DNA of 64,000 nucleotides from Amphiura filiformis (lineage: Eukaryota; Echinodermata; Ophiuroidea; Amphilepidida; Amphiuridae), in contig NC_092635.1 of NCBI RefSeq assembly GCF_039555335.1, positions 67,678,058 to 67,742,057 of the forward strand, read 5' to 3'. Of the stretch, positions 9,601 through 47,740 are shown piece after piece. Both the position numbers and the translations under genes were made by a program. Under the pieces are notes generated by a model. That model saw only the letters and a program-made list of their open reading frames with translations, had not been told where the DNA came from and searched no databases. Numbering within the stretch: position 1 is the stretch's first letter; each line of letters starts with the position of its first letter.

Positions 9601-12600
9601 ACTGAAAATTCAAAATTAGTGTTGCCAGAATTTTTGATAAAACACCCAATATTAGCATTTTAGTGATTTTGTGTTGATGGTTTGGTTAGGAAATGCTTAT
9701 TTCTAATTTTCATACATCGAATGTACACAGTATAGATTGTTATATGAATGCTTAAACACCTGAGCACAAAGTAAGTGTTGCCAGAATTCTTGATAAAACA
9801 CCCAAAATCATATACATATATATGTGCCACGATCCAACGTCAATTCTTTTACTATTATCAATATTAATAATAATATCAATGTAGGCCTATTGGCCTATTA
9901 ACATCATTATCTATAATAATCAAAAATATTAATATCAATATAAATAATAAGCAAAAGTATTAACATCAATTTGGTTTACTATCATCAATAATATTAATAA
10001 TAATATCAAATGTATTAACATCATTATCAACAATCATCAAAAATATTAACATCAACCCTAGAACTACTGAGCCATATTTTGTAACACGGACTACGTAAGG
10101 GGGTTGCAACCCTCTAATTTTCAATTATAAACATAATATACCGTTATATTTGGAATCAATGTATAGCTATGGGTCTCCTCTACCCCAGTGATACCAATAA
10201 GTACAAACATTCCTCTCATAATATCGCTATGACGTCATAATGTGAGGGCGCCCATGCAAATTTGGAAAATTTCAGCTATGTACAAAGGTATTGGCAAAAT
10301 TGTATTTCGGCTAAAAATGTTCTCCTCAAACTAACTAACAAGAAAAAAGTCAATAGCTTATAATAATTTTACATGAGCGAAATGAAAATAATTTGTTTTA
10401 CTGTAGAAACCATTGGTGGCCCTCACCAACACCCCTTCGACAGTCGGTCCTACCCCCAGGTAAGGTGCTGGTAAACATTTTTACACTAATATGAGTGCAA
10501 AGAATGGATCTACAATTAGTTTAGGTCGGGGTGTAAATGCGCACATTTTTTTTATGATGGATAAGAAATCTTGGGGTGGTACTTCGTAGTTCTAGGGTTA
10601 ATATCAATAATAATCAAAAATATTAACATCGATATCAATAATATTCAAAAATATTAATATCAATAACACTAATAATCAAAACTATTAATATCGATATCAA
10701 TAATAATCAAAAATATTAACATCAATATCAATAACAATCACAAATATTTATATCAATAATAAGCAAAATATCAATATAAATAATAAGCAAAATATTAATA
10801 TCAATAATAATTAAAAATATTAATATCAATATCTTAATATTTTAAAATTGATATTTATATAAATATTTTTGATTATTATTGATATTGATATTAATATATA
10901 TTTTTGATTATTATTGATATAGATATTTATATTTTTGATTATTATTGATGTTAATATATTTGATCATTATTGATTTTGATATTAATATTTCTCATTATTA
11001 TTGATATCGATATTAATATTTTGATTATTATTGATATGGATATTAATATATTGGATTATTATTGATATTGATATATACTTGATATTCTTGATTATTATTT
11101 AAATTGATATTTATAGTTTTGATTATTTTTGATATTAATATTAATATTTTTGATAATTATTGATATTGATGTTAATATTTTTGATTATTATTGATGTTGA
11201 TATTTTTGTTTATTTTTGATATTGATGATAATATTTTTGATTATTATTGATAACTATATTTATATTTTTTAAATTATTACTGAAATTGATATCAATATTT
11301 TTAATTATTATTGATATTGATATTTTGATTATTATTGATATTGATATTTATATTTTTGATTATTATTCACATTAATAGTTTTGATTATTATCATATTCAT
11401 ATTAATATTTTTGATTATTATTGATATCGATATTAATATTTTTGATATTGATATTAATATTCATTATTGAAATTGATATTCATATTTTTGATTATTTTGA
11501 TATTAATATTAATATTTTTGATTATTATTGATATTAATATTAATATTTTTGATTATTATTGATATTGATGTTAATATTTTTGATTATTATTGATATTATT
11601 GATGTTAATATTTTTGATATTGATGATAATATTTTTGTTTATTATTTCATAACGATATTTATATATATTTTAATTATTGCTGAAATTGATATCAATATTT
11701 TTGATTATTATTGATCCAGTCCAGTAAGGCTTGAGTGACCAGTTCAAAATTTAATAGAAAACAAAGAACAAAATTAATACCCATAACGGACCGTTCACAA
11801 ACACTTGTGAAGGGGGGGCTGATGCAAAAAAAATTTATCGCGAACATTTTTCGGGGCCCCCCTTTACAGACCTCGAAAATTTCAGGGCCCCCCTTTTTGA
11901 CATGAAAATGTTCGGTCAACCCCATAGAAAAGCATATAAACTCAATTTTCCCAGAAAAATTTGTGGCCATTTTTTTCAGGCCCCCCCCCCTTAGAAGGGT
12001 CAAAAATGTTCAGGGACCCCTTTTTTGCATCAGGCCCCCCTTACAAGTGTTTGTTAACGGTCCCTAATTACCCTGACTATAACTTTGCACTACTAGATAA
12101 TACTAGAACCGTGGGGTTTTCAAAATTTGAAAAAGCTTTTTAGGACAAGCTATTGATGATATTAAACCAAATTGACGTTGTCAACTTTAGTGTGAGAGGA
12201 CTGGATCGTTGCATTATGATTTTGGGTGTTTTATCAAGAATTCTGGCAACACTTACTTTGTGCTCAGGTGTTTAAAAATTCATATAACAATCTATACTAT
12301 GTACATTCGACATATGGAAATTAGAAATAATCATTTCCCAACCAAACCATCAACAACAAATCATACTATCAATAAAATACTAATATTGGGTGTTTTATCA
12401 AGAATTCTGGCAACACTAATTTTGAATTTTCAGTATTTAGATATTTACAAAGACGAAAATGTGTTGTTTGGATTCACCTTGAAGGAAAAATGCACATAAT
12501 TGTGACAAAAAGGCGTAATTTAACAAAATGTCAATTTGCAAAAATACCGGTTTTTCTGGCAACACTGTATTTAGAAGTAACATTTGCCCAAGCTGATTTT

Positions 12601-16768: not shown

Positions 16769-17660
16769 CATCAAATGACAGTCAGCTGATGACTGGCATG
16801 GCAATCAAGTGACATGGTGTAAGTGCCATCAAGTGCAACAATTTAGTGATATCTGTGATTATTTTGGGAAATCTTATCACATTGGAAGAAACGTAGTGTA
16901 GTGTAGGTGACATTGAGTGACAGTCATCTGACAACTGCTGTGACAATCAACTTGAACCAAGTGACAATATCACATTTGAGGAGACATGGTTTAAGTGACA
17001 TCAAGTGCAACAATTCAGTGACATCAGATCACTTTGGGGAATCCTATACAATTGGAAGATACATGTTTAAAGGTGACATAAAGTGACATTGACCGGTGTG
17101 ACAATCAAGTGACTATTTGAAGGAATCCAATAATTATGTCATATTGGAAAAAATGTGGTTTAGACAACATCACATGAGTCCGGTGAAAACTGGAGTGGCA
17201 TCAAGTGAAGGAATTACAGACTAATAAAGACTATCACATTGGAAGAGATATGGTTTAGGTGACATCACATGACAGTCAATTGGAAGATATATGTTTAAAG
17301 GTGACATCACATGACAGTCAGCTGACAACTGGAGTGACAATCAAGCGACTATTTGAAGGAATCCAATGATTATGTCACATCGGAAATGATATGGTTTAGG
17401 TGACATCACATGACAGTCAGCTGACAACTGGAGTGACAATCAAGTGACTATTTTAAGGAATCCAATGATTATGTCACATTGGAAAAGATGTGGTTTAGGT
17501 GACATCACATGACAGTCAGCTGACAACTGGAGTGACAATCAAGTGATAATTTGAAGGAATCCAATGATTATGATGTCACATTGGAACAGATGTAGTTTAT
17601 GTGACATAACATGGCTCAGCTGAGAACTGGAGTGACAATCACAATCAAGTGAAGGAATTA
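16769..17660 (+). repeat. ~100 bp minisatellite in GALNT 3' region
   Basis: Tandem, progressively diverged units built around GGTGACATCACATGACAGTC, GACAACTGGAGTGACAATCA and GAATCCAATGATTATGTCAC. Successive GTCACA landmarks at 17374, 17473 and 17575 give a period of about 99-102 bp. The array begins within the last codons of the gene: 'cacattggaagaaacatggtttaggtgacatca' is itself unit-like, so the GALNT C-terminus and the satellite are related in sequence. Confidence 0.88.
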
Positions 17661-27402: not shown

Positions 27403-27968
27403 TTGGGCTCATATTCCAGCTGCAATCCATATGCCCCCTGTGGAAGACATGACCATCATCTTTTACACAGGGGGTGTGACTTTCAAATGGGGTTACCCGA
27501 ATAGGTGACTCTATTAGAAATCTACACCCCATGTGTGAGAGATTAAGGTTGTCTTTCACACTGGGAGTGTGACTTTCAAATAGGATTACCTGAATGGGTG
27601 ACTCCATTTGAAATCTACACCCCATGTGTGGGAGATTGTTGTTGTCTTTCACACAGGAGTGTGACTTTCAAATGGAGTTACCCGAATGGGTGACTCCATT
27701 TGAAATCTACACCCCATGTGTGGGAGATTAAGGTTGTCTTTCACACAGGGAGTGTGACTTTCAAATGGAGTTACCCGAATGGGTGACTCCATTTGAAATA
27801 TACACCCCATGTGTGGGAGATTAAGGGTGTCTTTCACACAGGGAGTATGACTTTCAAATAAGGTTACCCGAATGGGTGACTCCATTTGAAATATACACTC
27901 ACCGTGTGGGAGATTAAGGTTGTGTCTTCCACAGGGGGTGTATGGATTTTAACTAGGATAGCCCATTG
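27403..27968. repeat. GGGCTATTCCA MITE with internal ~93 bp tandem expansion
   Basis: The outer ends are those of the MITE family, but the central palindrome-bearing unit is repeated in tandem. The landmark TGACTCCATTTGAAAT occurs at about 27599, 27691, 27784 and 27877 (period 92-93 bp), with a more diverged unit before it. Repetitive open frames on the minus strand are by-products. Confidence 0.88.
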
Positions 27969-32078: not shown

Positions 32079-32276
32079 ATGTATTCAAAGGGAGAAAAGA
32101 TTGAAGCTCTGGATAGTGAAAGACAATGGGCAAAAGGGAGCGTTATAGAAGTACTAGAGGAAGGATGGAGAGTTAAATTTACGGGATGGGGAGCGCAGTG
32201 GGACAGGAACATATACGATGAACGAGAGATAAGGCACGAAACGGAGATAGACGTTACAGAAAAAAGAAAGCGCAAG
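32079..32276 (+). CDS. Tudor-like gene exon 1 (barrel domain)
   Basis: 66 codons from ATG at 32079 to donor GTAAAT. It encodes the complete barrel and a basic tail. The ATG is the first in this frame after the TAG at 32040-32042. An upstream coding exon cannot be excluded. Confidence 0.78.
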
Positions 32277-34938
32277 GTAAATATATCTATTTGATCTACT
32301 TCAGTTTTTCGCATTTTATATGTGCAGTATCTCGGCTTCTTTAAAATTAACTCACTCACCCTTACATTTCAACATTTGTTCTACTAGTCATCCCAATAGT
32401 CATGAGAGTCTTTTTTAAATGCCATAGGTTTTCCAATGTGTTTACGAACTTTTTTGCCTGTTTTATTTGTGTAGTATAGGAAGTAGTGAAAGCTTGTGTG
32501 GTTTATAGTAAGATTGTTAGCTATTGTTAGGCTCCACAAATCACTATAGGCCTACATTGTATATTTGTAAGCTATTTGGGGCCATGCATCTGTAAACTGA
32601 GGCAACATACATTTTAAAAACATGTAAATGTCAATTACTTTTATATAGGCCTACATGATAGACAAGTTATTTAATGGCTGTTACATATTGTTATTGTTCG
32701 TTTTGGTAAAAACATGGAAGAATGTCAAGAGAATGTGAATGATATAAGTATCAAGAATACCTAATACCCTGTCCATGTATTCCATCTATATGACTAAAAA
32801 TATTCATTATATTTTAATATAATTTCAGAGGTGTGGTGATATTACAGTAAGGGAGAGAAAGTTAAGAAGAGGAGATATAGTGTTTACAGATGAAGGCAGA
32901 GTGGAGGTGGATGAAGTGGATTGGATTAGAAATGAGTTTAGAGGAAGAACTGAAGGACATGATGCACACAAAACATTTCCAGGTAAGTGAAAAGGAAATT
33001 TGCTAAAAATGATTGAACTTTACTTTGATTGTTTCTATATGGTTGTTATTGTTAGCTATTAATTAAAGGCCCTAATAATACATTTAGCAAAGGACATTGC
33101 TCGCTCTAGATGTGATTGCACTCTATAATTAATCTAATTGTACTATAATTAACCTGATTGACTAAGGTGACAAACAAAACAAACCGCCTTACTGATGTAT
33201 GTATGAATGTAATGTAAACACATTGATCAACTTTTGTTTCCTGCAAGTGTCAAAAATGCAAAAAGGAGGAATCTTCAAAACTTTTACTTGTAAATATCAA
33301 AGTTTTATAATTTTCTGAATTGAGGCTTAAATCGATTTGATCATGACACCAGAGTGTATTGTGTATTCTAATTTTTAAAGAAGGGGATGAGTTTAGAGAA
33401 ATTTGTTCCAAGGATGTTTTAGAATAACATGCATGTAGGGGCCTACATGCAAAACCTGCCCATGTGCAGGTTGCATGCTTGTACTTGTAAAAAGTTTATT
33501 CGAAATTTAAGGGGAACCGATTGATTTAGTTAGGCATACACCAGAGCAAATATTTCAAGTGAAGTTGTACAGTATAATTAGGAAACTGAAGGTTTACTTT
33601 TTTGTGCAGGTTAGTGGTAAAAGGGTGTCCTTTATTGAATTGTCTTAAGGTTAGACACTATTCTAAACTGTTGCTGATCATTTCATAGCGAGCGTGTAGA
33701 AGAATTGAAATATCACAGATATAATTTTGTAGGTCCTGTGGTTCTTGAGTTATGTTGTATTAAAGAGGGGTGAACCAACAACACTTTTGTAAAACATACA
33801 TAACTCATTTATAACAATAAATCAAGCAAGTTTTCAAAGTAAACGTCAAAGTGTTATTTTTCCATAATATATTTTTGGCTGTTTCGGCCAACAATACCTC
33901 GCCTACCCTTAATACGTTGGACAGTGTTTGCTCAAAGGTACAAGTTCTTGTTCTTTAAAGAGTAATTATTCTTTTATCTTTTTATCTTTAGGATCTGCCA
34001 TATCAGATGACCACAAATATGATGAGGATAGAAGTGAAGATGAATATGAAGAAAAGAATGATGACAGAGGCAAAAATGAAGACGAAGATGAAGACATCGA
34101 TGAAGATGAAGACATTGATGAAGATGAAACTGCAGACAACGCTGAAGATGAGGATGGGAGGTATTTAGATGTTGTAAAAGGTGGGACAGGGTATGTTGGG
34201 GTGGGGGATTTAGTTGTTTATTTAGGTCAATTGCTTTGTGTCATTGTCAGTATTTGCCTCAACCCATCAAGTCATATTACTACAGTAACCTGCCTTGGTG
34301 TTGACATGGAGGCAATGACTGTGGATGACATATCCAAATTAACCTGTTTACCAGATAAACTGCACCTATATAGATCACAACAAAAAATTAAACCATCATT
34401 AAAAAGACTAATTAAAAATATTAAAATAAAATCATTAGAAAATGTTCAAATTTGCCAAGAAATTAACTCTTCCAATATCAAGTATTTGGCTGCTTTAGGT
34501 TTTAATAGAGCTATGGCCTTTTTGTATAATAAGATTTGCACTTTTATGATGACAAAGCCATCTTCAACAAAGTTTGAAATTCCTTATAATTTTCACATAG
34601 TTAAACATTTTACCCTCAATGCTTCAAATCAATACAATTTGAAATTTGAAATTGAAAGCAAAAATTATAAAAAATTAGATGAAGTTTTTGGAAAACAATG
34701 GGATGTTCTTATAAATGACAGCGATTCCAGACATTTTTTTCAATTTATTAGGCACATCAATCTGCAGCTAAAATTAGGCAGTGGAGAGTGTAACAAAATT
34801 TTAGTACTTCTCACAAAGTGTCACTCAACATCAGCATTTCACTCTAAAAATTATAGAGCACTTGCTATATCTAGTCTCCATGCTGCAAGTTCAACCATAG
34901 ATAATTCAACACCAGAAAACTCCACTGAAAACAGTTGA
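32079..34938 (+). CDS. Tudor/chromo-barrel-like protein with acidic tract, 3 exons
   Basis: Exons 32079-32276, 32829-32982 and 33992-34938 join in frame (phases 0 and 1) into about 432 residues, ending at TGA. Residues 5-45 (KGEKIEALDSERQWAKGSVI, then EVLEEGWRVKFTGWGAQWDR) match the barrel of Tudor, chromo-barrel and MBT chromatin readers, with the typical F.GW...WD ending. Residues 51-66 are basic (KRKRK). About residues 122-170 are almost all Asp/Glu. The last 200 residues, starting near LHLYRSQQKIKPSLKRLIK, are Lys/Asn-rich and not recognised. By family, the barrel reads methyl-Lys/Arg or binds nucleic acid. A nuclear chromatin role is inferred. The gene is convergent with the large 2A gene about 6 kb away. 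Base composition is AT-rich like that gene and unlike GALNT exons. Confidence 0.78.
32829..32982 (+). CDS. Tudor-like gene exon 2
   Basis: Acceptor tataatttcag, donor gtaagt. It encodes RCGDITVRERKLRRGDIVFT and EVDEVDWIRNEFRGR and ends in a one-base split codon that joins exon 3 in frame. Confidence 0.78.
33992..34938 (+). CDS. Tudor-like gene exon 3 (acidic tract and C-terminal region)
   Basis: Acceptor ttatctttag. It begins GSAISDDHKYDEDRSEDEYE, followed by DEDEDIDEDEDIDEDE, and continues open to TGA at 34936-34938. Positions 34181-34354 are bounded by a possible GT..AG pair in matching phase (174 bp, 58 codons) and encode a hydrophobic stretch out of keeping with its surroundings. This may be an optional retained intron. 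Confidence 0.75.
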
Positions 34939-38159: not shown

Positions 38160-40964
38160 ACTGAAATTGAATTCATAAACCACATGAATATATTATGTGA
38201 TGCATCCAATCAAAGATGTTTACTTGCTACAATGCAAACACAATGCATAACTCTCTAAATAACTTGATTAGTTCCAGATGCCTGTACACTGCACTGTACA
38301 CGAAAGACTTATATAAATTTATAAGAGAAATCTTAGTGAAAGAAATAAATTCATAAAATTGTCTTACATATTCAAATGTATTCCAAATTACCTCCTTATT
38401 TTTGTGGAGCTTATAGAAGATGAATTAAAGAGAATGAATTTAATAGGATGAATTAAGGGCTACATAAATCTGAAGTTTGTGTACACTGTAAAAAACTAGA
38501 GTGGTCATACCTTCTTGGGATTTCGAGTATGAAAATAAGATCCAATTAAAAATAGGAATATTGACCCCAGTCTTACGAGGAGTATCATCCTGGATGGGCA
38601 AATTATTTTTATCATGTAAATATATTTACAGCAATATCCCTATGTAAAATGCTAAATTTAATTTAAGTCAATGTAATATCTGATATTAATTTTGGATTTA
38701 CTGAACACATGTTTCAATCAATTATGTCAAATATGTGTGTGTTTCATTATACATTAATTTCATCAAAATGGCTAGGCTTTATATAAAGACAAACATCAAA
38801 TAATATGAAAATTGTGAGCGACAAGCACACAAGGTAGAAACAAGAATAAAAAATTATTAATTTTAGTATCTCCAAAATGAAACAGAAACAATTATGATGA
38901 TTGGTATGTATGAGAGACCTTAGTATGAGAAATCATTACGTAATCAAGTATTCAACATCGCTAATAGCAAATAAGAATATCATAAATGTCATCAAAGTCA
39001 TGCTTGAGTGGAGATACATAATGGTTGTGAGAATATTGTCCTTCCCTATAAATATATTATTTAGATTTACAGCAGTCTTATAGATGTAGCAGAGCTCAAC
39101 ATTCACTTACTTTCTGTTTTGATTTGACTTTTTACGGTGCAAGGCTTGGAATTTTTAGATATAGGAGATGAGTTTTCAGATTTTGTTTTTAAATTTTTAT
39201 TTTTCTCTTTAGGGTCAGAATTTATTATAAACAAATGAGCATTATAAGTTTCTGCATGCAGCACTGAAAGTTGATTTGTACAAATGAATGGGCTGAAAAT
39301 TAATATATTGACATTACCAAATTGTTTTTAACATTTTTTCCAAGGCAGATTTGTTTGAAAGAAATACAAATTTTACTGGATTTTTCAAAATAATAAAAAT
39401 CAAAACAACAAAAAACAAAGGAAAAAACAGCAACAGAATGTTTAACATTAAATCAAAATTTGCTCGAAGAATCTTTCTTGATTCCAAAAGTATAAAAATC
39501 TGAACGTTTTTATAAAAGTGTGGGGGAGGTGAGGCTATGGACAGGGACAAGCGCGAAAAAAAAGCGAATTGCGTGGAAAAAATAGCAAATTGCGCGGAAA
39601 TAAACAACCAATTGTGCGGAATTTTTACAAGAAGAATAAAAATGTGAAAATACGAAATTATACACTGCGTCATGTAGGATATATTTTTAGCCTTATGATA
39701 TATCTAAATCACACAATTTTTTACCAATTTTAGGCATTTTGGCGGCCATTTTGAAATGTGCCCTCTATCTCGAGTGTTCCAACATTTGACATTGACTTTT
39801 TAAATGATTTCTCATGCTTCAAAGTATGATAGGCCACTTTCAAATCTTATTCCCCCGTGATTTGGTCACAGAAACACTAATTTCACCCATACTATACATC
39901 CCCAACTAGCATGAATAGTATTGTACTAAATTAACTTGTTTACTTTTCAACATAAATATGTGCCTCAAAGTTTCTTCACACGCATAAAGACATAAAAACT
40001 AAGCAACACTGGTACGAAACAGATTATCAAATGATTGACAATACCGAGACGCTCGAAAAGGCTAACATTTCAACAAAATGACTGTTTACGTTTACATTAA
40101 TAGTGAATTGGGTAGAAAAACTTGAATTTCGCGGGGAAAGGAAAATTTTGCGGCACATCACACGATTTCACGCCGCAAAAATCGTTGGACCCTGGAGAAA
40201 TGCCCCTTTAACAAGATACAAGATATATAAGATTTATTTCCCATAATTCACAACAAATCACACAAATATAAATTTTTAAAAACAAATAAACAAAGGCAAT
40301 ATCAAACAAAACAAATTATGGAGGGGATGACCAGAAGGCCAGAGGAAGTCACCCCTTTAACAAAGAAATGTTACCAACAAAAGAAGTAAAAACAAAATAA
40401 TATAATATTTATAATATAATAAATAACAAACAAAATAAGAAGGTGGGCGATGAGTATTGGATTTGGTGCACAAAGTGAAATAATGTATAATTTCTACATG
40501 CGTTTGATTGATAAGCTTGAACCATTTTTATGCAGTCATTTTTCCAATAACTTTAATGGCATAACCCTTATTGCATCTGTACTAGATATCCCTAACATTT
40601 GATTCAGCTAATTTCACTCAAAAGCAGCCTTGACAAATAATTTACTAATTCAATTTCCGAATTAAAACAAAGAGTCATTCTCAGACTCAGAAGTTGGGTA
40701 GTGGGTGGGTACACAGTCAAATTTTTGGCATGTCACAAACTGTTATTGTGTTTCTTAGTTTAACCAAAACAAATTTGACTGTATTATGGTTTGAACTAGA
40801 GGAGTAGACAGACCGCTTTAAGATACCAAATTTAGCTAAAATCAAGATTTATGTGATTAAATTCAGGATTAAATTTACCCAGGTTGGGAATCATTTTACA
40901 ATTCCTCAAGGAGTAATATTCAAATTTTTCCTCTAAAAATTTACAGATTTTGCTAATTCATATT
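38160..40964. other. intergenic region between the convergent genes
   Basis: AT-rich. Holds a half-copy of the GGGACAAG...GCG inverted-repeat family (about 39538-39680) and a possible minus-strand exon (39111-39292, listed separately). A minus-strand AATAAA (TTTATT at 40233-40238) lies about 730 bp past the large gene's stop and could be its polyadenylation signal. Confidence 0.4.
39111..39292 (-). CDS. possible coding exon of unknown gene
   Basis: On the minus strand a good acceptor (attaattttcag) and a strong donor (gtaagtg) bound 182 bases. They are open in one frame for 60 codons, encoding PFICTNQLSVLHAETYNAHL, then a Lys/Ser-rich stretch ending SQIKTE. I could not join it in frame to a neighbouring exon with confidence. 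It could be chance in AT-rich DNA. Confidence 0.25.
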
Positions 40965-43900
40965 CTAGTTTTGCACTTTTGCATAATTCCCTTTATCAGA
41001 GTCACTCATTCTTTTCCAAATTTCTTGCAATTTGTTATTCTTCTGTTTCCAACTCAAATTTTGTGGCTTTATTTTATTGATATTCTCTTTGTAAAATTGT
41101 ACAAACATTCCCGAAGGTCTTTTTGGTACCTTCTTTGCCTTCAATTTTTTTTGTTTTACCAAACGATTCTTTCTCTTTAAACGTTTGAGCTCGGCATATG
41201 GAAGTAATGCTCCAGGACCACCGGAGTGACGATATTTTGGTTTTGTTGTCACTGGATGAACATGGTGATTTTGCAGAAACAGACTGTTTAGTTGAAATGG
41301 TGCTAAAGAATGATATTTACTACTGCTACTAAGAAACTCAGTTAGAAAGTCAAATGAAACAATGTTCCATCCACGAGCTACTGCCTTACTTACAAGCGGA
41401 CTTGGCTTCTTTCTACTGCACTCTGAAGGATTACAGACAACTAGCATAGTGATATTGACATGAGGTTTAGGGAATCTATAAACGGGAAACTTTGAAAACA
41501 CTCTGGTGCCAGTTGCTTTTATTTTGGACATAATTTCATCGTTTGATCCATACTTTTGAGTGAGTTGTTTGGGGATTTTTCCAAATAGAATGATATCTGT
41601 CACAAGTACATCATTAGTTTTTAAAACTTTGGGTTTGCTTACCTTTAATACATCACCCAGTCTACTTGCTCTGTGTTTGTAAAGAAATATTCGCACATTC
41701 TTTGTAATAGTGTAAGCTGCTTTTTTCAGTCTTTGATATCTAGTACGAGCAATAAAGCCTCTCACAATTTTTTGCAATTGGGTCGCAGCCCAGATTTGTT
41801 CAATGTTATTGAAAAACTCTTTAGCACTTTGTACTTTCTCTGCATCTTGTGAGACCTCATATTCTTTCATTCTGTGCACCAATTTTCTAAATGACCATAA
41901 TAAAATTTCAAAGTGAGGGTCTACAGTTTTATATGCACCACCTCTTTGGGTATGTTGGTAAAAATGACAACCATGAATGTAATGCAAATGTTCCCCTTGC
42001 TCAGTTGCGAAGCGCATCAGAGAGGAAAGGGGTAGGGAATTAAGAAACATGGGGACTTGATCAATAAGTTTCATCATATATGGAGTAAGACGAGCACTAC
42101 TGTATCTAATAATAAATAAACGATGAAATACATTTGTAGCCATGATGTAGTCTGTGATCTGAGCATCGCTCAAACCCCATTCATAATCTGCAGGTTCACT
42201 ACTATCTTTTATTTTTCCTTGAATGAGAGTTGGGTCGGGATCGGAATCTCTTAAAATGCTGATCATCTTGTCAAGGTGGATCCAGATGTTACTTTCTATT
42301 TCATATTCTGTCAGTTTGGTTGAGAGGCTGCCTAACCACTTTTGAATAACAGAATCTATTTCATAAAAAACAGAAGTTGAAGCAACTCCTTCGAGCAAGG
42401 GTTTATATGCATTTATAAATTTGTTGGGTTGAGCTAAGAGAACATGGGCATCTTTCTTATTTAGCTTGACTTCGGTCGTTCCGGTGTCAAAGAAAGCAGC
42501 TTTTTGTATGCCCCGTTGAACCATATTGGCTTTAAAATTTGATAAGGAATTCTCCATTGCTGCCAAACCTTCAGTGAGTGGCGTTACTGATGTTTTAAGT
42601 TTAAAAGTTGAATCTAGACGAAGTTCTACAAGTTTACTAACAACTCGCGCCGCAGCATGATCTATACATAATACTTTATTATTTAAGGCAATACTTGGCA
42701 AAAGTGAATTTGGATTATGCCTATTAATGGAATTTTTGTTTAGGCCTGATCGTGTTCCTGAAGATATGTCAAATTCTGCCTTAGAACTTAAAGGGTCAGT
42801 AGAATACATATTAAAACCATTTTTAGATTGTGGGGCTAGTTCTCCTGGATTACCTTCTATTGAATCCATAAATTTGGCATCTCCAATAAGATAGGTCTGT
42901 ACTTTGTGAGTTTTTTGGATATTGACAAGAAATTCATTAACCCACCCAGGCTTACCACCAGGTCTTCCAATATTTGACTCAAGTTCCCATCTATCATCTC
43001 CTCCATAAAATATACATATGGGCCACAATTCATCCGTACTTTGAAAATCCAAGCCTTGCAATTTCTGTTCATTATTAATGAAGGACATAGCCAGAACAGT
43101 TGCCTTTCGGTCACCAATTTCCCGTCCATCCCCCCATAATTTTAACCAAACTGTTTTGTCTTTATTCCAAAAATATAAGTATTTCTTTAAAATATGAAAC
43201 ATTTGACTAGGATCAATTTTCCACCCAGAAGGTATTCTTTTTGGTTGCATGACTGCTTGATATTGTTGAAGTAATTTTTTTCTCATTTTTCTCCTGTTTC
43301 TCTCAGTGTCAAAAAATCCTGTTAGCTTTTTTCGTAATTTGTTTATAATTTCACTAGCATTGTGGTTGTCAATTAGATTAATTATTTCTAAGGAATTAAT
43401 GAAAAGTTCTTTACTTACTAATTTATATGCTAATTCATGTAGGAATGATTTATTTGAGCTAGATGGTACCAAACTAAGAATATCTACCAAATCTTCTTTA
43501 TCAATTTTACCATCCCATCCACCCGATTTGTCTTTGCTTTTGGAGTTCACATTTTTACAGATATCATACAAAACACCCATTTTAAAACTTTCTTTGTCTC
43601 CTTTGTGAATCGTTTGGGTCATCAGGCTAAGTTCTTTTTGTTGTTCTGAAACTCGGGTATGTAATGTTCTTTGGTGAATTATTTTCCCTGATTGAATCTG
43701 TTCAGAAATGGTCCCCCCTTGCTTAATTAAACAGTGTGAACTTTGGTCTACCCTCTCATGGATTTTATGTTTAGTTTTACCTACTTCCGTGGTTTTATGT
43801 TGGGTGGGCATCTGATCGAGCACAGCATCCTCAAGAAATTTAAGGTAGTCAAATGCGCATGTCCTATCTGGACTTTTTTTTTTAAAGAGAGGATTTAGGA

Positions 43901-46310
43901 TGCAAAGTGTAAAAGCTTTAAATGATATTAAACTATATTTCAATGATGATTGTATGTGTCTGGTTTTGATTAATTCACTATGGGGATCAAGGCCAGCATT
44001 GCGTAAAATTGTTTCTATGCATCGTGACTGGTGTGTATTTGGTGATGTGGCACAAGATATGAAATCACTGTACTTCATGAAGAGTCTGCCTCTATATTTA
44101 AAAATTGTATTATCTTGAAAAGTGTAACAGGCTTGGGGTTTATCTGTCGAAGGATCATATGAATTTGGAGTTGTTGTCGTTGTTGAACCTGGTGTATTTT
44201 GTCCTGCAATTGAATCATGGTCAGTTATTGTGCTTGAGTCAGTCACATTTTTTTTAATTTTAGGAGTTTGTCTTGATGAAACTACTTTAATCATGGGTTT
44301 ACTCAGAGGTTTCATTGGTGTTGAAAAAGGTGTGTTTTGTCTTGCAATTGAATTTTGTTCATTATAATCTTTCACTGGGCTATTTGAGCTTAATCCTAGA
44401 GGATTTGGGCTTGGCACTGTTTTAATCATGGATTTATTGTGAGTTGATGCAATTTTAGAACCTGATGTATTTTGTCCTCCTATTGAATCATGGTCACTTG
44501 TTCTGCTTGAATCGGTCACATTTTCTTTGATTTTAGGAGTTTGTCTTGATGAAACTACTTTAATCATTGATCTATTCAGAGGTTTCATTGTTGTTGAAAA
44601 AGGTGTGTTTTGTCTTGCAATTGAATTTTGTTCATTATAATCTTTTACTGGGCTATTTGAGCTTAATCCTAGAGGATTTGGGCCTGGCACTGTTTTAATC
44701 ATGGATTTATTGTGAGTTGATGCAATTTTAGAACCTGGTGTATTTTGCCCTCCTATTGAATCATGGTTTGTTCTGCTTGAATCGGTCACATTTTCTTTGA
44801 TTTTAGGAGTTTGGCTTGATGAAACTACTTTAATCGTGGATCTAGGTTTCATTGTTGTTGAACTTGGCCTATTTTGTCCTCCAATCGAGTCTTGGTCACT
44901 TGCACTGATTGAATCGGCCACACTTTCTTTGATTTTAAGAGTCTGGCTTGCTGGTATAATTTTAATCATAGATTTATTTGCAGGTTTCATTGTTGTTGAA
45001 CTTGGTGTATTTCGCCCTGCAATTGAATTTCGCTCATTATCATCTTTTACTGGGCTATTTGTGGCTGCATTTTCATCTGGGTGTGGTGGTTGATAATTGC
45101 TTGATATATTTTCAAAGGCGAAAAAGGTTAATCCATGATTAGAATCCGAAACATAGTCTGATGATTTATTTTCTGATTTATAGAAATTATTAATTGATGT
45201 AGCCCCTCTAATATCATCGCTAAGGTCATCCAAAAATAAAAACTTATCATTAATTTTTACAAGTGTTGAGTAGTGACAATGTTTTGCCTGGATTGCTCCT
45301 ATCAATTTGTAATTGAAATTTCCGATGGCAATTTGATCAGAAATCAATACTCCATCTATGACTAAAGGGTTCCCACTGGCATCAGCATGTGTACTAGGTA
45401 ATTCAACTAAAAGAAATTTGGGCAACTGTACCTTAACATCTGTGACTGATAAATAACGACCAGCAGTGCAATGTAAACAAGCTTTCAAAGGAGGGGTGTT
45501 TGCATATGGGTTGTACAGGCACTGGTTGACACAAAACTCCAAATTATTAAATTGGTTCAAATCTTCCTTTTTTGGATTCAATGGGCAAAGAAATCTTTCC
45601 TCTTGCCGGTAGTTAAAACACTTTTGGCATTTATATGTAATGACTTGCTTTGTATCAAATATACCTGATATCAATTGACCATTGCTATTCAAAAGTGGAA
45701 TCAAATCACTTAAACATGCATTAATTGTTCCCTTGGGTTGAAATGATGGCACAAAATTACATATCCAATCCCAAACAATATTTCTGGCATCTCTCAGCAT
45801 CTCTTTACTTGTGCAAGTTTCTCTTTCCTGGCAAAAATCAATACATATTTGAGTGAAATTGTTGTATGGGTTCATGATACTCTGATGCGTTTTATAGAAA
45901 CCGAAATAAAACAAGTCTAAAAATGCATCTACAGCACATGTAAAGTTTCCAGAGTTGAATTTGTGTTCATTGGTCAATTTCATAACAGATTGGTTGAATG
46001 TTGGGCCAGGATTTACTTCAATATCGTTACTCTGTAAAAGATGTGCTTGACTCCAGTAAATGGCTAAACAAATTACTACTAGCTGTAATACCAACCTACC
46101 AATATGTTTTGATGGGCCATCAATGGATGGACTTGCTTGCTGCTGATTTGTTTGCAAAAGCGTCCGTTTTCTGGACCCACGATGAGAAGATAATCCAAAG
46201 CGCTGTTTTCTAGAGGCACGATGTGAAGATGATCCAATGCGCTGCTTTTTGGGCCCACGATGAGAAAATGATCCAATACGCTGTCTCCACTGTGTCACAT
46301 CTATCCCCAT
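40965..46310 (-). CDS. 2A-containing USP/transposase-like/IQ/BRCT/HMG-box multidomain protein
   Basis: One uninterrupted coding exon of about 1,781 codons ending in TAG. The ATG at 46310 is chosen because a strong minus-strand acceptor (tttatttacttgcag) lies just upstream at 46332-46333 and this is the first ATG after it, in good context (atcATGG). The frame itself stays open to 46382. In order: three 13-residue repeats (10-48), hydrophobic segment (73-89), 2A motif (96-103), ubiquitin-protease-like domain (about 117-400), Ser/Thr/Asn-rich 91-residue repeats (about 416-716), RNase H/transposase-like region (about 1050-1445), IQ motifs (1509-1550), BRCT-like domain (1565-1666) and HMG box (1726-1781). 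Inferred role: DNA-binding, possibly transposon-derived nuclear protein made as two chains by 2A skipping. No known family has, to my knowledge, this order. Composition is AT-rich, unlike the GALNT exons. Confidence 0.88.
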   Translation of the reverse strand: MGIDVTQWRQRIGSFSHRGPKKQRIGSSSHRASRKQRFGLSSHRGSRKRTLLQTNQQQASPSIDGPSKHIGRLVLQLVVICLAIYWSQAHLLQSNDIEVNPGPTFNQSVMKLTNEHKFNSGNFTCAVDAFLDLFYFGFYKTHQSIMNPYNNFTQICIDFCQERETCTSKEMLRDARNIVWDWICNFVPSFQPKGTINACLSDLIPLLNSNGQLISGIFDTKQVITYKCQKCFNYRQEERFLCPLNPKKEDLNQFNNLEFCVNQCLYNPYANTPPLKACLHCTAGRYLSVTDVKVQLPKFLLVELPSTHADASGNPLVIDGVLISDQIAIGNFNYKLIGAIQAKHCHYSTLVKINDKFLFLDDLSDDIRGATSINNFYKSENKSSDYVSDSNHGLTFFAFENISSNYQPPHPDENAATNSPVKDDNERNSIAGRNTPSSTTMKPANKSMIKIIPASQTLKIKESVADSISASDQDSIGGQNRPSSTTMKPRSTIKVVSSSQTPKIKENVTDSSRTNHDSIGGQNTPGSKIASTHNKSMIKTVPGPNPLGLSSNSPVKDYNEQNSIARQNTPFSTTMKPLNRSMIKVVSSRQTPKIKENVTDSSRTSDHDSIGGQNTSGSKIASTHNKSMIKTVPSPNPLGLSSNSPVKDYNEQNSIARQNTPFSTPMKPLSKPMIKVVSSRQTPKIKKNVTDSSTITDHDSIAGQNTPGSTTTTTPNSYDPSTDKPQACYTFQDNTIFKYRGRLFMKYSDFISCATSPNTHQSRCIETILRNAGLDPHSELIKTRHIQSSLKYSLISFKAFTLCILNPLFKKKSPDRTCAFDYLKFLEDAVLDQMPTQHKTTEVGKTKHKIHERVDQSSHCLIKQGGTISEQIQSGKIIHQRTLHTRVSEQQKELSLMTQTIHKGDKESFKMGVLYDICKNVNSKSKDKSGGWDGKIDKEDLVDILSLVPSSSNKSFLHELAYKLVSKELFINSLEIINLIDNHNASEIINKLRKKLTGFFDTERNRRKMRKKLLQQYQAVMQPKRIPSGWKIDPSQMFHILKKYLYFWNKDKTVWLKLWGDGREIGDRKATVLAMSFINNEQKLQGLDFQSTDELWPICIFYGGDDRWELESNIGRPGGKPGWVNEFLVNIQKTHKVQTYLIGDAKFMDSIEGNPGELAPQSKNGFNMYSTDPLSSKAEFDISSGTRSGLNKNSINRHNPNSLLPSIALNNKVLCIDHAAARVVSKLVELRLDSTFKLKTSVTPLTEGLAAMENSLSNFKANMVQRGIQKAAFFDTGTTEVKLNKKDAHVLLAQPNKFINAYKPLLEGVASTSVFYEIDSVIQKWLGSLSTKLTEYEIESNIWIHLDKMISILRDSDPDPTLIQGKIKDSSEPADYEWGLSDAQITDYIMATNVFHRLFIIRYSSARLTPYMMKLIDQVPMFLNSLPLSSLMRFATEQGEHLHYIHGCHFYQHTQRGGAYKTVDPHFEILLWSFRKLVHRMKEYEVSQDAEKVQSAKEFFNNIEQIWAATQLQKIVRGFIARTRYQRLKKAAYTITKNVRIFLYKHRASRLGDVLKVSKPKVLKTNDVLVTDIILFGKIPKQLTQKYGSNDEIMSKIKATGTRVFSKFPVYRFPKPHVNITMLVVCNPSECSRKKPSPLVSKAVARGWNIVSFDFLTEFLSSSSKYHSLAPFQLNSLFLQNHHVHPVTTKPKYRHSGGPGALLPYAELKRLKRKNRLVKQKKLKAKKVPKRPSGMFVQFYKENINKIKPQNLSWKQKNNKLQEIWKRMSDSDKGNYAKVQN
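40968..41135 (-). other. C-terminal HMG box
   Basis: Residues 1726-1781. KVPKRPSGMFVQFYKENINK, then SWKQKNNKLQEIWKRMSDSD and KGNYAKV. The KRP.g.F..F......I, W..M.D..K..Y pattern is that of HMG-box DNA-binding domains. The box ends four residues before the stop, and a highly basic linker (RLKRKNRLVKQKKLKAKK) precedes it. Confidence 0.75.
41313..41618 (-). other. BRCT-like domain
   Basis: Residues about 1565-1666. The pattern is hydrophobic strand (VLVTDIILFGKIP), helix ending IKATG, strand NITMLVVCNPSECSRKKPSP, then helix and the conserved Trp region (SKAVARGWNIVSFDFLTEFL). This resembles single BRCT domains of DNA-repair proteins. It is inferred from the pattern, with no marker residues that would settle it. 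Confidence 0.5.
41661..41786 (-). other. IQ calmodulin-binding motifs
   Basis: Residues 1509-1550. AATQLQKIVRGFIARTRYQR fits IQxxxRGxxxR with Leu for Ile, and TITKNVRIFLYKHRASR gives a second, looser repeat. Such motifs bind calmodulin or EF-hand light chains. Confidence 0.6.
41976..43163 (-). other. RNase H/DDE-transposase-like region
   Basis: Residues about 1050-1445. Ordered blocks are WLKLWGDGREIGDRKATVLA (D1061), PICIFYGGDDRWELE, YLIGDAKFMDSIEG (D1144), LCIDHAAARVVSKLVE (D1217), ARLTPYMMKLIDQVPMFL and FATEQGEHLHYIHG (E1440). From memory, many invertebrate genomes carry transposon-like proteins with the same block order (GDGxx, GGDxKxL, H..LR, TPYMH..vxH.P, QGxE). I infer an RNase H-like fold with D/D/E metal ligands. 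The CxxC insertion common after the GDxK block in relatives is missing here. Confidence 0.5.
44214..44759 (-). repeat. 273 bp (91-residue) in-frame tandem repeat
   Basis: Two nearly identical units (residues about 518-608 and 609-699) start at SIGGQNT(P/S)GSK and contain SMIKTVP, LGLSSNSPVKDYNEQNSIAR and SRQTPKIK. More diverged units precede them (residues about 416-517). The DNA is repeated at a period of about 273 bp, so expansion is recent. The region is predicted to be disordered. Confidence 0.9.
45111..45962 (-). other. ubiquitin-specific-protease-like domain
   Basis: Residues about 117-400. The Cys box is SGNFTCAVDAFLDLFYFG (C125) and the His box AKHCHYSTLVKINDKFLFLD (H346 or H344), followed by DD at 361-362. 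A CxxC pair at 228/231 and another at 278/281 fit the zinc ribbon in USP fingers. The usual Asn/Gln before the Cys (as in GNTCYMN) is Phe-Thr, so activity is likely but not certain. Confidence 0.7.
46002..46025 (-). other. 2A-like ribosome-skipping motif DIEVNPGP
   Basis: Residues 96-103 match the D(V/I)ExNPG|P consensus that makes ribosomes skip a peptide bond between Gly and Pro. The break would be between G102 and P103 (codon 46002-46004). A hydrophobic run (LVLQLVVICLAIYWSQA, residues 73-89) sits just upstream, the layout reported for echinoderm 2A sequences that double as signal sequences. All core residues are present. Confidence 0.85.
46167..46283 (-). repeat. three 13-residue (39 bp) tandem repeats at the N-terminus
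   Basis: Residues 10-22, 23-35 and 36-48 read QRIGSFSHRGPKK, QRIGSSSHRASRK and QRFGLSSHRGSRK. They are basic and Ser/His-rich and lie entirely before the 2A site. Confidence 0.9.
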
Positions 46311-46331
46311 GATGATCGTATGTCTTAAAGT
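46311..46331 (-). other. 5' leader of the large exon after a splice acceptor
   Basis: The minus strand reads tttatttacttgcag, then 21 bases, then ATGG. A possible donor for an upstream non-coding exon is the minus-strand aag|gtaact at 46805/46804. Both are inferred. Confidence 0.45.
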
Positions 46332-46382
46332 CTGCAAGTAAATAAAGAACAATAATTGCACAATTACATAGGCAATTGGCAT

Positions 46383-47040
46383 AATTATAATACATGTAAC
46401 TTCTATATAACTTCAAAAATTAAATATTGAGATACCAAGTGAAAAATCAATATAGGCCTATTGTTTGAAGATGCATCAATGACAAATGTATAGGCCCTAA
46501 TGTAGCCCTCAGTCATGCTATTTTAAGGCAAGATTTTTAAGAGCATAATATGCACCATGTTCTTCTCTTTTTTAAAGCTTATACCAAATGAGTCAGGGTA
46601 TCCAATTTTCACTTTATAATTATGAGGTTGTAGTTCATGATCCTTGCCTTAGAATTCTAAGTTGTGGAGGACAACCCAGCATTTTTTTCTTGGCATTAAA
46701 GCATTAACATTAAAGCATGTACATAATTGTATTGATAACAGTAAAATAAAACCTAACAGATTAGGTCTCTGTGATCATTAATAAGTCAAAACGAATGAAG
46801 TTACCTTAAAATGAAAGCAGTTGCTTGTTTGGCAGAATCAAATTCTAAGGGTATCCTGACAAAAGCATGAGATGATGCTCTGATGTAGTATTTGCTGCTG
46901 ATCAGCCAAGTTGAACCCTTTGTAGTGAACTTCTATGTGACATATACTTTCCAAATGCTCCTGTAAATAGATTAAAACAATACCAGAATTCTATCAATTT
47001 TTAACTAAATGACCTGTCTTATCTCAAAGTTTAGGCAATT
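46383..47040. other. region upstream of the 2A gene
   Basis: AT-rich, with no repeat or open coding exon recognised apart from the possible donor near 46805. I compared it with 31274-32078 for terminal inverted repeats and saw none. Confidence 0.4.
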
Positions 47041-47140: not shown

Positions 47141-47579
47141 TATATACACTCGTACCTCATTTCATATTTAAGTGCCCCCTCCATTCGGGATTATAACTGT
47201 ATGGATGTTTGTTTTCCTCCTAGATGTATAATGTTGATTCAACAACTCTTCCTATACCTTTATACAGGAGCCAAGCGTTGTTAATCCGTGATGAATCCAC
47301 ACTTTTACAGTAGCGTATACGCGAACACAAGGTTAAGCGTACGCGCTACGCGTGAGCGTGTAATGTTCGCCATGCCTGGAACCAGGAACTTATGCATAAA
47401 CACTTTCTTAATATGTTAAATTAAAGTAGCAGCTAAACATCGCTGCTTTAGTTTTATTGCTGATATCAACAGAGAAATCACCGATCTTCTTGTAAGGTTG
47501 AGTAGCAATGATAAACGGATATTCCGAATGAAAGAATCACGTGAATTAGACCATCTTTAGCTTGTTTTCGTTGTTGAAA

Positions 47580-47740
47580 GGATTCAATCATGTTTCACCG
47601 TTGTTCATCACCGATTAACAACTTCGCGTCGGCAGCGTCTGCGTGGTTTACTTCGCTCGGGCAGCTAAAGCAGCCCTCGTGAAGTAAACCACGCGGACGC
47701 ATCGTTCGGTGATGAACAATGGTGAAACATGATTGAATCC
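47580..47740. repeat. 160 bp GC-rich hairpin
   Basis: GGATTCAATCATGTTTCACC and GTTCATCACCGA at the left are mirrored by TCGGTGATGAAC and GGTGAAACATGATTGAATCC at the right. The inner arms GCGTGGTTTACTTC and GAAGTAAACCACGC close it. The loop is short, so single strands would fold tightly. Confidence 0.88.

Follow-up and report, generated by a model that had tools for sequence, protein, structure and literature searches.

RAG1/Transib transposases are the origin of V(D)J recombination, and the ends of RAG1, RAG1L and Transib elements are terminal inverted repeats starting with CAC, accompanied by a 5-bp target-site duplication. One account describes the RAG1L and RAG2L genes as convergent (PMC7204232), and RAG1 is described as carrying an N-terminal RING that acts as a ubiquitin ligase (PMC4411706, PMC7204232). 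In the RAG and ProtoRAG assays of two reports HMGB1 is supplied as a separate protein (PMC11844651, PMC8289069), and sea-urchin RAG1L is reported to bind recombination signal sequences with HMG proteins present (PMC9885083). Here we describe a gene of the echinoderm Amphiura filiformis, found in a 64,000-nucleotide stretch of contig NC_092635.1 (the window, meaning the whole of the DNA analysed), whose protein, P0001, combines a ubiquitin-specific protease (USP)-type deubiquitinase domain, a transposase-like core and an HMG box. We consider it probable that the gene belongs to a multi-copy animal family whose catalytic core has the RAG1/Transib fold and which propagates, or once did so, as a DNA transposon; the present copy may still be active, be a fossil or have been domesticated. 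In the open-access literature that we searched, we saw no description of a RAG1-type transposase joined to USP, BRCT or HMG domains.

A core of predicted RAG1/Transib-like fold

An initial annotation, made from the letters alone, had read the gene as encoding 2A, USP-like, transposase-like, IQ, BRCT-like and HMG-box parts, and had proposed structure prediction for the core. We modelled residues 930-1530 (numbering of P0001, which is that of the initial annotation plus 34) and found an RNase H-like core whose predicted fold is shared with RAG1/Transib over about 400 residues, so that the transposase-like reading stands, its RAG1/Transib-like character having been missed. An acidic D, D, E triad is invariant across the non-gap rows of the family alignment. 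In the model its residues lie at three structural places, taken as positions along the predicted fold: one in a strand, one right after a strand and one on a helix past the helical insertion. A local profile match of the family alignment (with 43 of its 46 rows) to RAG1 covers 66 columns including the catalytic Glu, with an E value of 0.002, and scores above 100 shuffles and 12 decoys. The USP domain, the core fold with its acidic triad and the HMG box are each supported by conservation or prediction.

The domain order recurs in a multi-copy family

The gene lies in a stop-to-stop frame on the minus strand (46412..40965, 1,815 codons), in which the ATG at 46310 gives the 1,781-codon frame of the initial annotation. 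Given the composition of the window, 1,815 open codons would arise by chance with a probability of about 10^-57.6. A splice-acceptor-like TTGCAG precedes the ATG by 21 bases, which makes 5′ exons upstream likely; the claim of an uninterrupted exon thus holds for the coding part and probably not for the whole transcript. The same annotation had set the gene apart by its AT-rich composition, which we do not find: its GC content is 0.34-0.35, close to the 0.355 of the window, and foreign origin by composition was rejected.

Scanned alone, the window protein gave two weak Pfam matches, to IQ and to the HMG box, both below cut-off, and none at E ≤ 0.01, so relatives had to be gathered. Querying with residues 820-1560 gave 10 proteins at E ≤ 0.01 out of 6,140 candidates, a 607-residue core profile added one, and a search from P0005 listed 40 proteins including itself, 34 of them new. 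With these 45 relatives the family has 46 members; those named come from Glandiceps talaboti (a hemichordate) and from the sea cucumbers Holothuria leucospilota and Apostichopus japonicus. A quick tree placed the window protein beside P0012 and P0002 (core identities of 62% and 56%), followed by P0003, P0010 and Glandiceps. Of the 46 members, 27 have the USP domain, among them 24 of the 26 with at least 1,300 residues. USP, core and, between them, a conserved small domain that we label KB occur together in 23 of these 26, P0003 being without KB and P0035 and P0036 without USP.

This recurrence bears on whether the frame could be a join of unrelated genes, or a product of chance or misassembly. 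The weak Pfam matches of the lone protein would suit such an artefact, but the same domain order is found in many proteins, which argues against a chance chimera, and when 11 relatives were compared with the window by tblastn, every one matched within the frame, with no match outside it below E 0.42; we regard an artefact as extremely improbable. By the same searches there is no second copy of the gene in the window. Holothuria leucospilota has nine named family proteins with pairwise core identities of 45-67%; three lie on a single 104-Mb contig. Nine diverged copies are the behaviour of an old multi-copy mobile family, as far as gene models of one species can tell. A viral or phage origin was considered and rejected: viral contigs showed no relatives, phage records showed none of the core, the core model had no match in BFVD at E ≤ 0.001, and PHROGs gave none at E ≤ 0.1.

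Element ends and alternative assignments

Several results weigh against this assignment. The sequence link to RAG1 is limited to the 66 columns; an earlier profile of eight sequences gave a local RAG1 match of P 0.053, and global alignment of the core to RAG1 by hhalign failed. With the core profile, searches recovered neither a PDB sequence at E ≤ 10 nor an informative Pfam family. The triad is placed by its position along the predicted fold. At the RAG1 zinc sites, whose ligands we take to be C727 and C730 (ZnC2) and H937 and H942 (ZnH2), the CxxC after the second Asp is absent in 46 of 46 members, and His occurs at the first aligned ZnH2 place in 0 of 44 members and at the second in 6 of 44. 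Copy number was taken from protein models, mainly of one species. Finally, no convincing terminal repeats or target-site duplications were found round the gene, or round the pair that it forms with a convergent neighbour described below.

Some of these points would suit a core that belongs to a different DDE transposase superfamily, whether hAT, KDZ, Kolobok or one without a name, the RAG1 match then reflecting a shared general plan of RNase H plus helical insertion. Most of the core is unalignable to RAG1 by sequence, the zinc site is largely missing, and the comparison with DDE superfamilies beyond RAG1/Transib covered hAT structures in the PDB. With the shared predicted fold and the 66-column match on the other side, we think this assignment unlikely. 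An N-terminal RING, a trait of RAG1 and of some Chapaevs, was not detected by Pfam in the window protein (E ≤ 1) or in 22 long members (E ≤ 0.01), these being the long ones with a C-terminal tail among the 46. Since neither a RING nor the RAG1 set of zinc ligands was found when looked for, we do not class the protein as a RAG1/RAGL member; we call its core a distant new lineage of the predicted RAG1/Transib fold with new fused domains. There may be a likeness to the 'TPYMH' proteins of cnidarians and fungi.

A generic terminal-repeat scan found 138 pairs (56-163 in 20 shuffles), the best with 17 of 20 matches (16-17 in shuffles), and an inverted pair at 40585-40611 and 46829-46855 was set aside as chance on this basis. 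Scanning for CAC with a 5-bp duplication gave 14 pairs (5-11 in 8 shuffles), with a best match of 11 of 20 that lies within the 10-12 of the shuffles. For the flanks of the gene pair, the best blastn score was 28.2 bits (26.3-30.2 in 10 shuffles) and duplication counts did not exceed those of shuffles. Autonomous Transibs are described as typically present at one or few copies (PMC4411706).

These results raise the question of domestication: this copy could now be a host gene, for instance for a protein of DNA repair or of the germline, that is immobile and shares the family's origin while leading a different life style. Its intact 1,781-codon frame, the likely 5′ splice acceptor and the failure to find convincing ends or a second copy in the window would fit. 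Against this, Holothuria carries multiple diverged copies of the family, and many RAG-like gene pairs have no detectable ends anyway, as one account has it (PMC7204232). Domestication is a serious candidate, although we lean slightly away from it. A mobile or once mobile family remains our preferred reading of the relatives as a whole.

Nested inverted repeats lie upstream of the gene at 47277-47740. They comprise 35-nt arms with 97% complementarity, a 32-nt pair separated by 2 bases and a 19-nt pair separated by 308, and may represent a small element of the non-autonomous kind. Elsewhere in the window there are satellite-like arrays at 27459-27941 (units of about 93 bp, 5.2 copies), 17299-17641 (99-bp units, 3.5 copies) and 10600-11715 (AT-rich 31-bp units). 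Scans for tRNAs and Rfam families gave no match in the window.

Domains fused to the core

The USP domain is confirmed by its fold and retained catalytic residues (C159, H380 and D395), with zinc cysteines C262, C265, C312 and C315; ubiquitin-cleaving activity is predicted. By sequence, the USP part had three PDB matches, none of them a USP, and a UCH_1 match was found in one of six USP fragments. In P0004 of Glandiceps talaboti a ubiquitin domain (residues 164-238, E 7.5e-9) precedes the USP domain, on which it might act in cis as a substrate, a decoy or a regulator.

The HMG box, with an E value of 0.022 in the window protein alone, below the Pfam cut-off, is clear in a profile of six window-clade members, which matched TFAM at 3.3e-10 and HMGB1 at 2.8e-9. 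Among the 22 long members Pfam detected an HMG box at E ≤ 0.01 in one; HMG_box_2 passes the cut-off in P0010. For the BRCT-like region, no direct Pfam match was obtained in the window protein, and the PDB matches of a window-clade profile included no BRCT; BRCT_2 was found in 13 of the 22 at E ≤ 0.01, and in P0004 (E 8.4e-8) it stands at the place aligned with this region of the window protein. The IQ motif is likewise weak here but reaches E ≤ 0.01 in 8 of the 22. KB precedes the core in 35 of 46 members, 16 of which have two or more copies. KB copy number varies among members, reaching four in P0045, in a pattern as if from tandem duplication.

The 2A motif that had been proposed is present as DIEVNPGP (residues 130-137), in agreement with D(V/I)ExNPGP, but it occurs in one of 46 members, the window copy, and is not part of the shared architecture. 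N-terminal 2A sequences of sea-urchin NLR proteins, as described in one report, can serve as recoding and signal sequences (PMC4981915). Both have NPGP after an N-terminal hydrophobic stretch; here the motif sits on a transposase-like protein, and recoding is putative. The internal tandem repeats also noted before are units of 273 bp and 39 bp, the former in frame and 91% and 66% identical to a reference copy.

Taken together, the initial interpretation is partly supported and its list of domains is right in substance. A large DNA-transposon protein, or a derivative of one, joined to a deubiquitinase holds up, the order recurring in relatives. The profile searches it had proposed recovered the HMG box and failed, by sequence, for the core (PDB and Pfam), the USP part (PDB) and the BRCT-like region (PDB).

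Table 1 Features of the transposase-like gene and of the convergent candidate gene (positions in the window; residues of P0001)
Feature	Residues	Position	Strand	Basis
Single coding exon, ATG to stop, 1,781 codons	35-1815	40965..46310	-	
N-terminal leader: WRQRIG stretch, 39-bp repeats, hydrophobic segment, 2A motif	35-137	46002..46310	-	Sequence, motif position
USP deubiquitinase domain	146-438	45099..45977	-	Fold and catalytic residues
Linker with 273-bp tandem repeats		44163..45110	-	Repeat analysis
KB domain, about 85 residues, between USP and core	766-850	43863..44117	-	Family hidden Markov model
RAG1/Transib-like RNase H core; D1095, D1178, E1471	925-1523	41844..43640	-	Model of residues 930-1530
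IQ motif	1541-1560	41733..41792	-	Pfam E 0.019, below cut-off
BRCT-like region	about 1605-1700	41313..41600	-	Alignment to P0004
HMG box, HMGB/TFAM type	1763-1812	40977..41126	-	Pfam and clade profile
Candidate companion exon 1: Tudor/chromo-like domain		32079..32276	+	Splice sites, phase, likeness to P0006 N-terminus
Candidate companion exon 2: second small domain		32829..32982	+	Splice sites, phase
Candidate companion exon 3: acidic stretch and C-terminal part of no known kind		33992..34938	+	Splice sites, phase

A convergent Tudor-like gene

At a distance of 6 kb, on the plus strand, a convergent gene (32079-34938) has three exons of fitting phase encoding 432 residues. Its Tudor/chromo-like domain matches MSL3_chromo-like in Pfam at E 0.0045 and 0.039, below cut-off, and otherwise Pfam gave nothing significant, the open frame of exon 3 having no match; against the PDB the best E value was 0.53, which is not significant. 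No Kelch or PHD was detected by Pfam in the part of the convergent exons that was scanned. Residues 2-97 are colinear with residues 3-109 of P0006 from Holothuria, with a score of 71 against at most 50 in 500 shuffles, and in a phmmer comparison with 46 family proteins P0006 scored E 1e-4 and the next best 0.17.

Whether this gene belongs with the transposase-like gene is evenly poised. It could be an unrelated neighbour, a host gene or part of another element, its likeness to P0006 being the common look of small barrel domains: the match to P0011 is not above shuffles (17 of 500 reach the same score), the C-terminal 227 residues resemble none of the family proteins (best E 0.45), and no ends enclose the pair. 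P0006 and P0011 align with each other at a raw score of 64. Against an unrelated neighbour stand the colinear two-domain match to P0006 and its lead in the phmmer comparison. Since RAG1L and RAG2L genes are also convergent, we treat the Tudor-like gene as a candidate partner and no more, and infer a link to the element by analogy. A second, separate two-gene RAG-like system, with a RAG1-fold transposase, an HMGB-type bender in cis, a deubiquitinase in place of the RING E3 ligase of vertebrate RAG1 and a convergent Tudor-like reader replacing the Kelch-PHD of RAG2, is a tentative proposal that we rate as possible but doubtful.

Proposed mechanism and comparison with known systems

In the mechanism that we envisage, the 2A motif would free the main protein from the hydrophobic leader, or the fused form would enter the secretory route. 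KB domains might bind the element ends, and the core would nick and hairpin DNA as in Transib and RAG. A fused HMG box would supply in cis what separate HMG proteins bring to the RAG, ProtoRAG and RAG1L experiments described above, and would bend the DNA, which for RAG is the work of HMGB1 in trans. The USP domain could trim ubiquitin off the protein itself or off chromatin, and BRCT could contact repair factors. By analogy, the N-terminal enzyme would act opposite to the RING ligase of RAG1, and the protein may evade or use the host ubiquitin system. If the assignment is true, a distant lineage would show which accessory functions, HMG and ubiquitin among them, are required time and again by RAG1-type enzymes, and its natural fusions would make DNA bending and (de)ubiquitination testable within one polypeptide. 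If the Tudor-like gene is a partner, the locus would add an independent example of a chromatin reader paired with a RAG-type transposase.

With ubiquitin-specific proteases (C19) the family has in common the fold, the catalytic Cys, His and Asp and two CxxC pairs; it differs in its very low sequence likeness and in the fusion of the USP part to a transposase-like core. The HMG box is matched by profile to those of HMGB and TFAM and is fused in cis to the core, whereas HMGB1 is a separate protein in the assays described (PMC11844651, PMC8289069). The Transib superfamily with RAG1/RAG1L (Transib, TransibSU/ProtoRAG, RAG1 and Chapaev) shares with this family the predicted core fold, the D/D/E residues at the expected elements, the 66-column match and, possibly, a convergent partner gene. 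To these the family described here adds USP, KB, BRCT and HMG, and it has neither the CxxC after the second Asp nor a RING detectable by Pfam. Spacings differ from those of RAG1: in 42 members D-D is 76-103 and D-E 285-300, compared with 108 and about 254 in RAG1. In contrast to the RAG two-gene systems, the candidate partner here is Tudor-like and not of the Kelch/PHD kind.
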